Source: a virus. From it: a stretch of DNA of 29,970 bases. The notes beneath the pieces are model-generated. The model worked only from the letters and a program-made list of their open reading frames with translations, did no database searches and was not told the DNA's origin. The position numbers were made by a program, and so were the translations under genes. This document shows positions 1,958 to 29,970 of this stretch, piece by piece. Position 1 is the stretch's first letter. Each line of letters starts with the position of its first letter. The DNA lies in IMG/VR virus record IMGVR_UViG_3300030430_002639, positions 1 through 29,970 of that record. The stretch is one strand, 5' to 3'.

Positions 1958-2343
1958 CACCTCAGAGTAAAAAAAGTTTAATTATGTCAAAATATCGCAA
2001 TACAAGGCCTCTAATTGGTGGGATTCGATGGGCTTCGAAAGCAGAAGCAGCTTACTACTTTAAGTATTTATTACCGTTAGAAACGTCTGGTGAGATATCA
2101 GAGTTAAAGCTTCAGCCACGTTTACCTATCATTGTAAATGAGCAAAAGATCTGCCATTACGTTGCAGACTTTAGCCACATAACAGATAAAAAGATGGTGA
2201 TAACTGAAGTGAAAGGGTTCAAAACCGATTTATACAAAATCAAGATAAAATTAGCCAAAGCCTTGTACCCAGAATATGACTTCAACATTGTTGAAAGCAA
2301 GACTTTACGAAAAGATATAAAAGAGCTTGAACTTGAAGAATAG
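1951..2343 (+). CDS. DUF1064-type phage nuclease
   Basis: Resembles the DUF1064 family of phage proteins, related to restriction-like/Holliday-junction-resolvase nucleases. Seen: KYRNTRPLIGGIRWASKAEAAYY, a glycine/arginine turn followed by the conserved SK.EA helix; the basic LKLQPRLPI; and the core YVADFSH...VITEVKGF, which matches the D...E-x-K nuclease pattern. The TTG at 1951 is chosen because AAGGTG (1939-1944) lies 6 nt upstream, giving 130 aa. An ATG at 1984 (119 aa) has a poorer ribosome binding site but sits right before the domain. It is the first rightward gene and overlaps the replication initiator, suggesting a role in processing replication or recombination intermediates. Confidence 0.8.
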   Translation: MSTPQSKKSLIMSKYRNTRPLIGGIRWASKAEAAYYFKYLLPLETSGEISELKLQPRLPIIVNEQKICHYVADFSHITDKKMVITEVKGFKTDLYKIKIKLAKALYPEYDFNIVESKTLRKDIKELELEE

Positions 2344-3286
2344 CAAGTTAACGCCCGATCCAATTAGAGACGCACCCAAAGAATCAAAAGGTGAGTTTCA
2401 AGCCCCAGGGGCGCACATGGTGCTACCGTCTAGAGCTTACGGTGATCTCAGATTTAATAGATTTCCGATGACTTTTCGAGTGTTGGCTTTGTGTTGCGCT
2501 CACGCAAATAGCTTCACTGGGGTTTTCTTTCCGAATCAACAATATCTGGCACAAGTAATGCAAAGTTCACAACAAGCGGTATCACAGCACATGACGAAGC
2601 TCGTTCATTTTGGTTACATCGAAAAGATATTAAAAGAGGATAACCGCAGACCCTACGGCAAACGTGGGGCGAAATGGAGAGTTATATTTGATCCGAGGTG
2701 TAGTCTGGAAGATGCGATTGCGAAAGCCCCAGCAACTCAAAGAGATGAAGAACTCGAAAAGGATATCGCAAGGGAGACTTTAGAACAGATGAATAAAAAA
2801 GATATCCCCAAAGTTATCCACAAGCAAAAGAAGAAAGAGGAAAAGAAAAAAACAGGTAAAGTTTCACAAGGTGCAACTTGTAAAACTAACAAAAGTTATC
2901 CACAGGATATTCAGTCCAACAAGGTGGGGCTTGTATTAAAAAACAAGGTGGAGCTTGTGCGTAACGAAAACATTAATATAACTAGTAGTAGTATAGATAA
3001 AATAAGTGTTAAGAGAATGTGTAATGCGTATGACATGATAGTTCAGAAGTATTACCGCAAAGCATGGAGTTACGATCCAATCCAACTCGAATATGCAAAA
3101 GAACTACTCTCACTGTACACCCTCGAAGAGTTCCAGAAAGAAGCAGAGGAACTCGTGGCATGGAAACGGAAGAACAACCAACAACCCCCATATAGTTTGA
3201 AGTATTTTATCCAAAGAAAGTACAAAAGCCCGAAAGGGAAAGCAGACATCAACAAAGCGATTCAGGGAATCATAGATAAGCTATGA
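2333..3286 (+). CDS. Replication initiator-like winged-helix protein with internal origin
   Basis: The N-terminal part (from GAHMVLPSRAYGDLRF through FPNQQYLAQVMQSSQQAVSQHMTKLVHFGYIEKI) has the winged helix-turn-helix layout of phage/plasmid replication initiators. The centre is lysine-rich and low complexity. The C-terminal part (NAYDMIVQKYYRKAWSYDP to the end) is a helical domain that could recruit a helicase loader, as in lambda O or DnaD-like proteins. Start is uncertain: TTG 2333 (317 aa) follows AAGAG at a 7-nt spacing; ATG 2417 follows AGGGG by 5 nt and would give 289 aa beginning at the domain. DnaA boxes and iterons lie within its central coding part. The phage has no visible polymerase or helicase, so this protein probably loads the host replisome. 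Confidence 0.75.
   Translation: MKNSKLTPDPIRDAPKESKGEFQAPGAHMVLPSRAYGDLRFNRFPMTFRVLALCCAHANSFTGVFFPNQQYLAQVMQSSQQAVSQHMTKLVHFGYIEKILKEDNRRPYGKRGAKWRVIFDPRCSLEDAIAKAPATQRDEELEKDIARETLEQMNKKDIPKVIHKQKKKEEKKKTGKVSQGATCKTNKSYPQDIQSNKVGLVLKNKVELVRNENINITSSSIDKISVKRMCNAYDMIVQKYYRKAWSYDPIQLEYAKELLSLYTLEEFQKEAEELVAWKRKNNQQPPYSLKYFIQRKYKSPKGKADINKAIQGIIDKL
2810..3010. other. Candidate replication origin (DnaA boxes, iterons, AT-rich tract)
   Basis: Two perfect DnaA boxes TTATCCACA lie at 2814-2822 and 2896-2904, each inside the longer identical stretch AAAGTTATCCACA and in the same orientation. Three 16-bp iterons lie at 2866-2881, 2919-2934 and 2943-2958. A very AT-rich stretch follows (about 2965-3010), a possible unwinding element. 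The two DnaA boxes are read in different codon frames (VIH and SYPQ), as are iteron 1 and iterons 2-3. The arrangement resembles lambda ori inside gene O. Confidence 0.75.
2866..2958. repeat. Three iteron-like 16-bp repeats
   Basis: The copies are ACAAGGTGCAACTTGT (2866), ACAAGGTGGGGCTTGT (2919) and ACAAGGTGGAGCTTGT (2943). The consensus is ACAAGGTG-N3-CTTGT. Each carries inverted arms ACAAG/CTTGT, so a dimeric protein could bind. Start-to-start spacing is 53 and 24 bp. Confidence 0.85.
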
Positions 3287-3709: not shown

Positions 3710-4125
3710 AGCGTAAAAAAAAGAAACCAGTGATTCCAAAGGTAGGTAGATTTGGTGGTATTGGTGAGATTAGGAAGAGATTGAGGGGTTCTCAGATTAT
3801 TTATGATAATCGAGATGGTCTAGCCAATGAGATGTTAGAGATATCGAGAGCTAAGATTACCGATATTTTTGATTGGGAAGGTCAGAAGTTATGGTTGAAA
3901 GATGCGAAAGATATTCCTGAAGGTGCTTTGAGTGCGATAAAGAAGATACGTATTACCCAGAACCCAGCAGGGGAACAGGTAGTAGAGTGTGAGTTGATTA
4001 ACAAAGTGCAGATTCTTCAGATACTTGCTAAGAGTGCTGGTTTACTTGATGCTGAAAAAGAAGGCGATAAACCTGCGGTGGTAGATATCCAGATGATTAT
4101 GCCTGAAGAGGAAAATGGGAAATGA
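3703..4125 (+). CDS. terS: Terminase small subunit (probable)
   Basis: Probable DNA-recognition subunit of the packaging motor. Basic N-terminus (RKKKKPVIPKVG), helical middle, and a C-terminal part VECELINKVQILQILAKSAGLLDAEKE that matches the usual TerS pattern where a helix ending K...L..L....GLL precedes a divergent tail. Length 140 aa is typical. It starts at TTG 3703, directly supported by GGAGG (3691-3695) 7 nt upstream; no ATG lies nearby. It overlaps the next gene by ATGA. Identification rests on this pattern and on its place just before the PP-loop gene and the large terminase. Confidence 0.7.
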   Translation: MVERKKKKPVIPKVGRFGGIGEIRKRLRGSQIIYDNRDGLANEMLEISRAKITDIFDWEGQKLWLKDAKDIPEGALSAIKKIRITQNPAGEQVVECELINKVQILQILAKSAGLLDAEKEGDKPAVVDIQMIMPEEENGK

Positions 4126-4958
4126 TTAAGAACAAACTTAGAGTGCTTTCATTAGGTGCAGGGGTGCAATCAAGCACTCTTGCTTTTATGATTCAAAAAG
4201 GTCAAGTTCCAATGGTAGATTTCGCTGTCTTTGCTGATACAGGTGGAGAACCAGATAATGTTTATAAATGGCTAGATTTTATTAAGAACAATGTGGATTA
4301 CCCTGTTCATGTTGTACAAGAAAGAAATTTAGAAAAAGATATCGTAGATGCTGCGGAAGGAAAATACAATGCGTTCACGATTCCGTTTTATACTTTAAAT
4401 ACAAAAAATGGGAAAAAGGGTTTCTTACGTAGACAATGCACAGGACATTATAAAATCAAACCTATCATAAAAGAAGTGAGAAGAATGTTAGGATACTCAA
4501 AAGGTGAAAGAATTCCTTATAAAGAAACTAAAGTTGAAATGGTTCTTGGAATTTCTTTAGATGAAATTGTAAGAATGAGAGATAATGAATTAAAATACAT
4601 TGAGAATCAATATCCTTTAATTAATGATTTTAGAATGAAGCGACATGATTGTTTCATGTGGTTACAAAATAACAATTATCCTATTCCAGAAAAAAGTGCT
4701 TGTTATTTTTGCCCTTTCCACAGTCATTCTACTTGGGTTGAATTGAAGAAAAAACAACCTGCAGAATTTTTAAAAGCTGTAGAGATTGATAAAAGAATAA
4801 GACATCAAGAGATTCATAAAGGGAAATTAGACCCAGAGGAATTTTATCTGCATAACTCTTGTAAGCCTCTTGAAGAAGTTGTCCATGATGACACTCAACA
4901 AGATTTATTCTTAGATCAATTCAATAATGTGTGTGATGAAGGTATGTGTGGGGTATGA
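4122..4958 (+). CDS. PP-loop / PAPS-reductase-family protein
   Basis: ATP-pyrophosphatase (PP-loop) protein of the PAPS-reductase superfamily. Seen: PP-loop SLGAGVQSST (residues 10-19), ADTGGEPDNVYKW (38-50), a cysteine motif RRQCTGHYKIKP (103-114), GISLDEIVRM (143-152), and a CxxC pair CYFCPFH (194-200). Further cysteines are C177, C247, C271 and C276. Family members activate a substrate with ATP and reduce or transfer sulfur; DndC (DNA phosphorothioation) and thiolation enzymes are relatives, but no dndB/D/E partner is present. It is coupled to terS by ATGA and stops one base before the terL ATG, inside the terminase module. Arginine codons are almost all AGA, unlike the mixed use in terL, so later acquisition is possible. 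The substrate is unknown. Confidence 0.85.
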   Translation: MIKNKLRVLSLGAGVQSSTLAFMIQKGQVPMVDFAVFADTGGEPDNVYKWLDFIKNNVDYPVHVVQERNLEKDIVDAAEGKYNAFTIPFYTLNTKNGKKGFLRRQCTGHYKIKPIIKEVRRMLGYSKGERIPYKETKVEMVLGISLDEIVRMRDNELKYIENQYPLINDFRMKRHDCFMWLQNNNYPIPEKSACYFCPFHSHSTWVELKKKQPAEFLKAVEIDKRIRHQEIHKGKLDPEEFYLHNSCKPLEEVVHDDTQQDLFLDQFNNVCDEGMCGV

Positions 4959-10403: not shown

Positions 10404-10406
10404 TTT

Positions 10407-10422
10407 ACAAGTTGCGCCTTGT
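10407..10422. promoter_or_regulatory. Iteron-like inverted repeat upstream of the capsid gene
   Basis: ACAAGTTGCGCCTTGT has the same arms and spacing (ACAAG-N6-CTTGT) as the three origin iterons and matches each of the first two at 13 of 16 positions. It lies in the 138-bp gap 10404-10541 between scaffold and capsid. It could be a binding site for the initiator or form an RNA stem-loop in the leader. Confidence 0.5.
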
Positions 10423-10449
10423 ATGGTACAAAAGAGTCTGAAAGATAAC

Positions 10450-10468
10450 CTTATGGCCTTTCCGTAAG
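10450..10468 (+). promoter_or_regulatory. Hairpin in the capsid leader
   Basis: CTTATGG (10450-10456) pairs with CCGTAAG (10462-10468) with one G-U pair and a 5-nt loop. No U-tract follows directly, so it is more likely an RNA processing or stability element, or a weak attenuator, than a terminator. A one-mismatch DnaA box (TTTGGATAA, 10482-10490) lies beyond it but is probably chance. Confidence 0.4.
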
Positions 10469-10541
10469 CAAAACAGCCCTTTTTGGATAACTGTTGCGAA
10501 ACCTTTAACGTAACTTTATGCAATCATGGAGGGCATAAAAA

Positions 10542-11402
10542 ATGACAACTAGAGCCAATCTATCGGCTGCTTTTGTACAGCTTTTTGAACAAGAAGTTCA
10601 TCAAGCATATCAAAGTAGTGCAGTATTGACTGGGGCTGCTCGAACTCGAACTGGAGTTGAAGGAAGCACAGTCAATTTTCCAAAAGTGGGTAAAGGTCAA
10701 GCTAGTGTTCGTACACCTGGCACAGACGTTATCCCATTGAACTCAACTTTTAGTAGCGTATCTTGTACTTTGACAGACTTCGCTGCTTCTGAATATTCAG
10801 ACATTTTCAACCAAGCTAAAATTAACTTTGATGAAAGAAATGAACTAGCGCAAGTGGTTGGTAATGCAATAGGCAGAAGGCAAGACCAAATACTTCTTGA
10901 TGCTATCGCTGCTGCTTCAGCAGGAACGACAGTAGCAAATACAGTAGTAACTTCTGGTTCTGCATCTGCTTCTGACTTGAATGTTGGTAAAATTATCGCT
11001 GCTAAAAAAGCACTCGATACCAAGAACGTACCACCAGATAATAGACATATTATCATTCATGCTAACAACCTAGCTGCTTTGCTTGGAGATGAGAGAGCTA
11101 TCAGTGCTGATTTCCAAACTATTCAAGCTTTGGTAAGTGGCCAAATAAACACAATGATGGGATTTACTTTTCATGTTCTAGGTGATAGAGATGAAGGTGG
11201 TCTTGCAATCGACGGTTCTAATGATAGGACTTGTTTTGCATTTCATCAAAGTGCTATGGGTGTTGCGGTTGGTATGCCAGCTTCAACAGAGATTAACTAT
11301 ATCGCAGAGAAAACATCATTCTTAGTTACCGCTAAATTATCAATGGGTGCGGTTGCTATAGATACTGATGGTATCGTAGATATTACTTGTAGGGAGAGCT
11401 AA
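10542..11402 (+). CDS. Major capsid protein
   Basis: A 286-aa protein of the HK97-like phage capsid class often found in marine podoviruses. It starts with TTRANLSAAFVQLFEQEVHQAYQ, a helical N-arm, then GAARTRTGVEGSTVNFPKVG, the conserved entry into the core. Later come RRQDQILLDAI, NLAALLGDERAISADFQTIQALVSGQI and MGFTFHVLGDRDEGG. Its end contains SAMGVAVGMP...EKTSFLVTAKLSMGAVAIDTDGIVDI, the typical final strands. A strong GGAGGG (10528-10533) precedes the ATG. A good leader, a separate upstream gap, and a terminator after the next gene fit high-level expression. Confidence 0.92.
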   Translation: MTTRANLSAAFVQLFEQEVHQAYQSSAVLTGAARTRTGVEGSTVNFPKVGKGQASVRTPGTDVIPLNSTFSSVSCTLTDFAASEYSDIFNQAKINFDERNELAQVVGNAIGRRQDQILLDAIAAASAGTTVANTVVTSGSASASDLNVGKIIAAKKALDTKNVPPDNRHIIIHANNLAALLGDERAISADFQTIQALVSGQINTMMGFTFHVLGDRDEGGLAIDGSNDRTCFAFHQSAMGVAVGMPASTEINYIAEKTSFLVTAKLSMGAVAIDTDGIVDITCRES

Positions 11403-26963: not shown

Positions 26964-27203
26964 TCAGAGTATTTCAAAAGCTCTTGGTTTATTAAAAAGC
27001 TTAATGTACCCTCGCTCTTGAATCTGATGCACATGATGACTGATTACACCAAGCGTTCTCTGTTTAATAACTTCCTGATTATCGATAGTTCCTTTTGCAA
27101 TCTCTCGGTAGGTTGGGAAATAGTCAAAATGTTGTTTGTAAATTTTTATGAAATTCAAAATTTCTAGCTGTGTCGGAGTCAATCCTAATTTTGGTTTATC
27201 CAT
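26964..27203 (-). CDS. LexA-type winged-helix DNA-binding protein
   Basis: A 79-aa protein matching only the N-terminal DNA-binding domain of LexA: LTPTQLEILNFIKIYKQHFDYFPTYREIAKG (helices 1-2), an insertion, then VISHHVHQIQERGYIKLFNKPRAFEIL (recognition helix and wing). The LexA autoproteolytic peptidase domain is absent, so it cannot be cleaved by RecA in the usual way. It may act as a phage repressor or competitor at SOS-box-like sites; a GTTC-N7-GTAC site lies in the divergent control region. It is the last gene of the leftward operon, 4 bp after the annealing protein stop. Confidence 0.8.
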   Translation of the reverse strand: MDKPKLGLTPTQLEILNFIKIYKQHFDYFPTYREIAKGTIDNQEVIKQRTLGVISHHVHQIQERGYIKLFNKPRAFEIL

Positions 27204-29770: not shown

Positions 29771-29970
29771 GCTACAGCCCCCCTTTTTAAGATGTTGTTG
29801 ACAGTGGAGGCGTACCACTTGCCCCCTCTGCTCGTTGGTACTTCAATCTCATTTAGTAACTGGGCAATCTGTCGGGTGGTCTTGTCCTTGTGTGGCTCGA
29901 TTAATACTAATATTTTTTGGGCGAAATCATTAGCATTTTGTTTTCGTTTTTTACAAGCTAAAACCCTTGC
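29767..29970 (-). CDS. Serine recombinase, C-terminal part (completes 1-563 across the contig junction)
   Basis: This is the continuation of the recombinase that starts at 563; bases 29894-29970 repeat 1-77. Codons run in phase across the join (last codon before it is GAG, then CCA at 29895-29893). It encodes the DNA-binding tail TTRQIAQLLNEIEVPTSRGG followed by KWYASTVNNILKRGAVA and a TGA at 29767-29769. Confidence 0.9.
   Translation of the reverse strand, partial: ARVLACKKRKQNANDFAQKILVLIEPHKDKTTRQIAQLLNEIEVPTSRGGKWYASTVNNILKRGAVA
29894..29970. repeat. Terminal direct repeat, right copy
   Basis: Identical to 1-77. See the left copy for its meaning. Confidence 0.95.

Follow-up and report, generated by a model that had tools for sequence, protein, structure and literature searches.

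The window, the whole stretch of viral DNA analysed here, comprises 29,970 bases and carries an exact 77-base terminal direct repeat (1-77 and 29894-29970); the genome, assembled as circular, is therefore probably closed at about 29.9 kb. The locus under study is an ORF at 2327-3286 whose product matched the PHROG replication-initiation and O-like families, with E values of 5e-9 to 7e-6, and gave weak matches to helix-turn-helix and DnaD-N models. Alignment with relatives indicated TTG at 2333 as a possible start of this gene. The features of the locus are as follows.

2327-3286, plus strand: coding sequence of an O-like replication initiator, assigned from the PHROG matches, an AlphaFold model and alignment with relatives
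2585-2587, plus strand: codon 87 (Gln), part of the recognition helix SQQAVSQHM, which the model places at residues 82-95, and covarying with base 5 of the iteron arm
2814-2822, plus strand: DnaA box 1, TTATCCACA, roughly at the position of an inverted box in relatives (offset 487 versus 491)
2850-2865, plus strand: slot of the relatives' iteron 1, 16 bp before iteron 2, with no recognisable iteron left
2866-2881, plus strand: iteron ACAAGGTGCAACTTGT, corresponding to iteron 2 of four-iteron relatives
2896-2904, plus strand: DnaA box 2, TTATCCACA, starting 23 bp before the iteron at 2919
2919-2934, plus strand: iteron ACAAGGTGGGGCTTGT, corresponding to iteron 3 of relatives
2943-2958, plus strand: iteron ACAAGGTGGAGCTTGT, 24 bp after the iteron at 2919, a spacing as in relatives
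2959-3008, plus strand: AT-rich stretch, a putative DNA-unwinding element, 74% AT against 59% for the gene

The AlphaFold model of the initiator predicted a winged helix at about residues 34-122, a disordered linker at about 150-221 and a helical C-terminal domain at about 220-318, with pLDDT of about 80 in both domains and under 50 in the linker. The boxes and iterons fall within the part of the gene that encodes the linker, between the DNA-binding and the C-terminal domains, and this linker can be a place where the protein tolerates DNA-driven sequence. As a sole protein query, the window initiator found no match in viral contigs, cultured phages or bacterial and archaeal genomes, and PDB sequence and fold searches returned generic winged helices only.

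A preliminary description, made from the letters of the window, had placed a replication origin at this locus, with two perfect DnaA boxes and three 16-bp iterons bearing ACAAG and CTTGT arms inside the gene of a winged-helix initiator-like protein, followed by an AT-rich tract. Both boxes and all three iterons proved exact to the base, the family matches and the model agreed with the proposed protein, and the 50 bp past the last iteron were AT-rich as described. The codon frames were likewise as given: the boxes occupy frames 1 and 2, and the three iterons, in order, frames 2, 1 and 1. A fourth copy of the iteron, at 10407-10422, had been overlooked. The same description held that the phage lacks a polymerase of its own, and neither a polymerase nor a helicase was found among the window ORFs scanned, a set that left out the largest structural ORFs. 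GC skew changes sign at about 2 kb and 27 kb, the very points at which the genes switch orientation; because the two are confounded, skew was dropped as origin evidence and neither supports nor refutes an origin here. Elsewhere in the window, a PAPS-reductase-like gene (4122-4958) lies between the small and large terminase genes, an arrangement that recurred among the compared loci only in L012 and L029. The leftward operon includes a protein with a LexA-type DNA-binding domain (26964-27203) and a resolvase-type serine recombinase (3-563).

We then compared the counts of these sites with chance expectation. Four copies of ACAAG-N6-CTTGT occur in the window against 0.04 expected, and they are confined to the initiator gene and the capsid-promoter site at 10407-10422. 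The only two perfect copies of TTATCCACA on either strand of the window both lie on the plus strand in the linker, 82 bp apart. This count exceeds the 0.42 expected, an expectation that takes no account of the closeness of the boxes within the linker, and it is weak on its own because 10 of 100 shuffles reached two. When codons were shuffled synonymously with the window protein kept fixed, the probability of obtaining three iterons was 5e-5 and that of obtaining two boxes 0.014. From these counts and P values, the iterons in the window genome alone are far beyond chance, while the boxes are suggestive. The AT-rich stretch also holds TAGTAGTAG-like triplets (2980-3000), reminiscent of the DnaA-trios of bacterial origins, and similar TAGTA/ACTAAT runs are present in L104, L108 and L109.

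Relatives were collected from marine viral contigs through the terminase gene and then by initiator alignment, which gave 80 more loci, and these related uncultured phages formed 44 clusters at 90% DNA identity. A perfect in-gene DnaA box was present in 29 of the 44 clusters, against 1.75 expected from synonymous codon shuffling within each gene; by the same shuffling, the clusters held 73 iterons of the main class where 5.6 were expected. The other 15 clusters kept the initiator and repeats with the perfect in-gene box absent. The expectation that the sites would persist where the protein drifts thus stood for the iterons, which are found throughout the ACAAG clade, and held for the box in about two thirds of clusters only. 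The box is therefore a strong but dispensable part of the locus, and DnaA binding there is not essential to the family. The box also occurs in several sequence contexts and in both orientations; on the tree its orientation changed at least three times and its presence seven times. In the main clades, the minus-strand boxes closest to the first iteron begin 19, 20 or 21 bp ahead of it, while the plus-strand boxes of four loci (L102, L106, L107 and L151) begin 14-15 bp ahead of it, roughly half a helical turn nearer. The window boxes, both on the plus strand, precede the next iteron by 52 and 23 bp, off this family spacing, and one iteron is missing. In relatives, AT content over the 50 bp following the last iteron averages 75%, compared with 53% for the gene, and 33 of 34 genes have their AT maximum no more than about 40 bp from that iteron.

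The more distant clades carry other palindromic iterons (ACAAC..GTTGT, GTCAAC..GTTGAC, ACTAC..GTAGT and TTAAG..CTAA), which change in step with the recognition helix. Comparing residue 87 with base 5 of the iteron arm, we found Q with G in 30 rows, L with G in 2 and R with C in 12, with no exceptions in the 44 rows, in which repeat classes were read by eye and from which the three divergent rows L188, L192 and L211 were left out along with L100, whose repeats belong to other kinds. On a tree built without the residue-87 column and without the linker, the R/C pair arose twice independently, and one of these switches is nested deep in the Q clade with full support; two co-switches are too few to reach significance in a sign test. 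Given the absence of exceptions and the position of residue 87 in the recognition helix, the comparison provides strong evidence that the initiator reads and binds these repeats, with the recognition rule Q87-G and R87-C.

The fourth copy of the iteron is located between the scaffold and capsid genes, just past the former, where we identified the following features.

10404-10432, plus strand: sigma-70-like promoter overlapping the putative operator, from sequence reading and a family consensus over 30 sequences
10407-10422, plus strand: extra iteron palindrome ACAAGTTGCGCCTTGT, a putative operator
10542-11402, plus strand: major capsid protein coding sequence, 61.8% identical to the major capsid protein of MEP301

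The promoter consists of a -35 element TTTACA (10404-10409), a 17-bp spacer and a -10 element TACAAA (10427-10432), with the palindrome inside the -35 and spacer. A consensus promoter scanner made no call at 10404-10432 in the window because TACAAA is a weak -10 element. Of the 113 capsid loci whose upstream sequence was long enough, 65 carried such a palindrome, located 136-187 bp ahead of the capsid start (53 of the G..C class, 5 C..G, 3 A..T and 4 mixed). The consensus of 30 distinct capsid-side sequences was TTTACAAG-N6-CTTGTA followed by TAT 17 bp after TTTACA, in which the search pattern had imposed the ACAA and TTGT columns and had imposed neither the -10 element nor its spacing. Moreover, one R87 genome, L091/L216, has the capsid site ACAACCTCCAGGTTGT (ACAAC..GTTGT), matching its own iterons ACAACACCCAGGTTGT. 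It is the sole R87 genome showing both loci, so that the co-switch of iteron and operator is a single event. Two loci, L083 and L151, described below, break the correspondence between iterons and operator. A search for a further genome combining a C-type iteron with a C-type operator gave such operators in L136-L138 and no initiator on L136 or L137, the two tested. As the palindrome is conserved in most relatives and co-switched in L091/L216, the capsid promoter is probably under the control of the initiator too; the overlap of the palindrome with the -35 element argues for repression as the putative mode.

It might be considered that the capsid-side palindrome forms an RNA hairpin, or overlaps the -35 element by chance, and is no site for the initiator at all. 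The inverted repeat adjoins a structured 5' leader, and TTTACA alone fixes part of its left arm; the operators of L083 and L170 have changed symmetrically to A..T, in L083 beside iterons that retain ACAAG (ACAAA..TTTGT at the operator). However, the right arm keeps both its sequence and its position around a variable 6-base centre, the arm class switched together with the iterons in L091/L216, a search of the window gave no terminator-like site, and in L151, which has iterons, a promoter-like sequence persists before the capsid gene without the palindrome. We therefore regard this explanation as unlikely.

The structured leader itself occupies 10433-10541 of the window, between the capsid promoter and the start codon, and is conserved in L012, L016, L125, L128, L130 and L131. 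Compensatory double changes were seen in 9 of 13 predicted pairs in a 9-sequence alignment, and the stretch is much shortened in the window; an Rfam search with the leader gave no match. An apparent match to the iteron of L025, CTACCTGATGTAG, ahead of the capsid gene of L025 was rejected as evidence for an operator, being located in the stem of the structured leader and not at the promoter. In one subclade, a further perfect ACAAG-N6-CTTGT is found in the first capsid codons (L009:15595, L011:15595, L012:15605, L014:6824 and L023:15623), which may be a second operator or possibly a coding coincidence.

We further considered which DnaA protein might use the boxes. Upstream of the initiator, a stand-alone DnaA domain IV gene was first seen in five relatives and then in about half of the clusters or more. 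These frames of about 150-240 residues match Bac_DnaA_C, carry the R-D-H-T/S signature and leave no room for the ATPase domain. The carriers include L004, L010, L016, L018, L022, L034, L047, L049, L052, L062, L078, L084, L093, L104 and others, and some of the genes and the DUF1064 resolvase gene upstream of them overlap in different frames. A whole-record search placed DnaA domain IV over the Pfam cut-off in 5 of 15 records and found no such gene in the window.

With so many clusters encoding a protein of this kind, the boxes could serve regulation or host shut-off, by titrating DnaA or by binding the phage domain IV, instead of co-initiation with DnaA. Against this, the window has two boxes without a domain IV gene, one or two boxes per genome would titrate little DnaA, and box and gene are uncoupled across clusters: those without the gene keep the box, and those with the gene can lack it. 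Such a role is quite improbable in our judgement. Because box presence is independent of the domain IV gene, host DnaA is the more likely partner of the boxes in the window phage.

The layout of the locus was compared with known systems. In phage lambda, gene O contains four iterons with an AT-rich region behind them, and O binds as dimers (PMC3985674, PMC7466680). Similarly, palindromic iterons are embedded in the linker-coding part of the window initiator gene with an AT-rich stretch after them, although a direct comparison of the window initiator with lambda O gave no significant sequence similarity. Unlike lambda, the window has perfect DnaA boxes beside the iterons; in the 2.5 kb around lambda O, no TTATCCACA-like box with at most one mismatch was found, and DnaA acts in lambda by stimulating transcription and via sites downstream of pO (PMC3985674). 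A second difference is that lambda O is followed by P, a helicase loader, while a P-type loader next to the initiator had no match among the scanned ORFs of the window.

Iteron plasmid origins such as those of RK2, P1, F and pSC101 have a DnaA box near the iterons and an AT-rich region, and load the host DnaB. The window resembles them in the closeness of its DnaA box to the iterons and the AT-rich region. It differs in that its iterons are inside the initiator gene and palindromic, as dimer sites, and in that the initiator is an O-like winged helix by family search and not of the RepA, RepE or TrfA type. It also differs from chromosomal oriC in having one or two DnaA boxes with iterons dominating, and no array of several boxes.

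The Methylophilales phage MEP301 and phages of its type share the backbone of capsid, tail and recombination genes, with polymerases not found. MEP301 was reported to be without both polymerases, and the passages retrieved from that paper mention neither an origin nor an initiator (PMC8024684). In contrast to the window, its likely initiator gp55, a winged-helix protein, is without such repeats, and its genome has no perfect DnaA box. Searches of the open-access literature turned up neither this architecture nor a capsid promoter with an operator for a replication initiator. By its sequence features, the architecture appears to mix lambda-type and plasmid-type origins and to be widespread in one marine phage group.

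The in-gene repeats could alternatively be only autoregulatory operators of the initiator, acting as roadblock or repressor sites with replication starting elsewhere, and the capsid-promoter copy does suggest that the initiator is probably a transcription regulator too, but we hold this to be highly improbable, since the array begins 500 bp into the gene, its spacing is fixed, a DnaA box adjoins it and AT content peaks past the last repeat, which is the layout of the lambda ori, and the window palindromes are nowhere except in the initiator gene and at the capsid promoter.

Taken together, these results support the origin interpretation of the preliminary description and extend it by the candidate operator at the capsid promoter and the DnaA domain IV genes of relatives. 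The best reading is a lambda-O-type origin within the initiator gene combined with a plasmid-type DnaA box. We put a probability of about 0.8 on the region at 2.81-3.01 kb being an initiator/DnaA phage origin, with the same initiator probably also acting on the capsid promoter. The sites, their conservation and the coevolution of recognition helix and iterons are read directly in the sequences, and from them we infer the origin activity, the use of DnaA, the recruitment of helicase, and also the sign of capsid control and its timing. Initiator dimers would bind the three palindromic 16-bp iterons in the coding sequence of their own linker, and host DnaA would bind the boxes adjoining them. The AT-rich stretch just downstream would then melt, and host DnaB helicase and polymerase would be recruited, because none was found encoded by the phage. 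The initiator would also occupy the identical palindrome in the -35 and spacer of the capsid promoter, where repression is its simplest role; new genome copies may titrate the initiator and release repression, thereby coupling particle production to replication. For the complete scheme, in which one winged-helix protein starts replication at in-gene iterons with host DnaA, controls the capsid promoter and by its own dilution serves as a copy-number timer, with a captured DnaA domain in relatives, we see roughly even odds.

Small podovirus-like phages without polymerases, such as the relatives of MEP301, are common in marine data, and how their replication begins had not been described in the literature searched. 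Our analysis supplies a putative origin, its protein and a recognition rule for this phage group. If the capsid operator is real, it would give a simple timing of particle production by the phage's own replication, one that differs from the known case of T4, in which replication is linked to late transcription.
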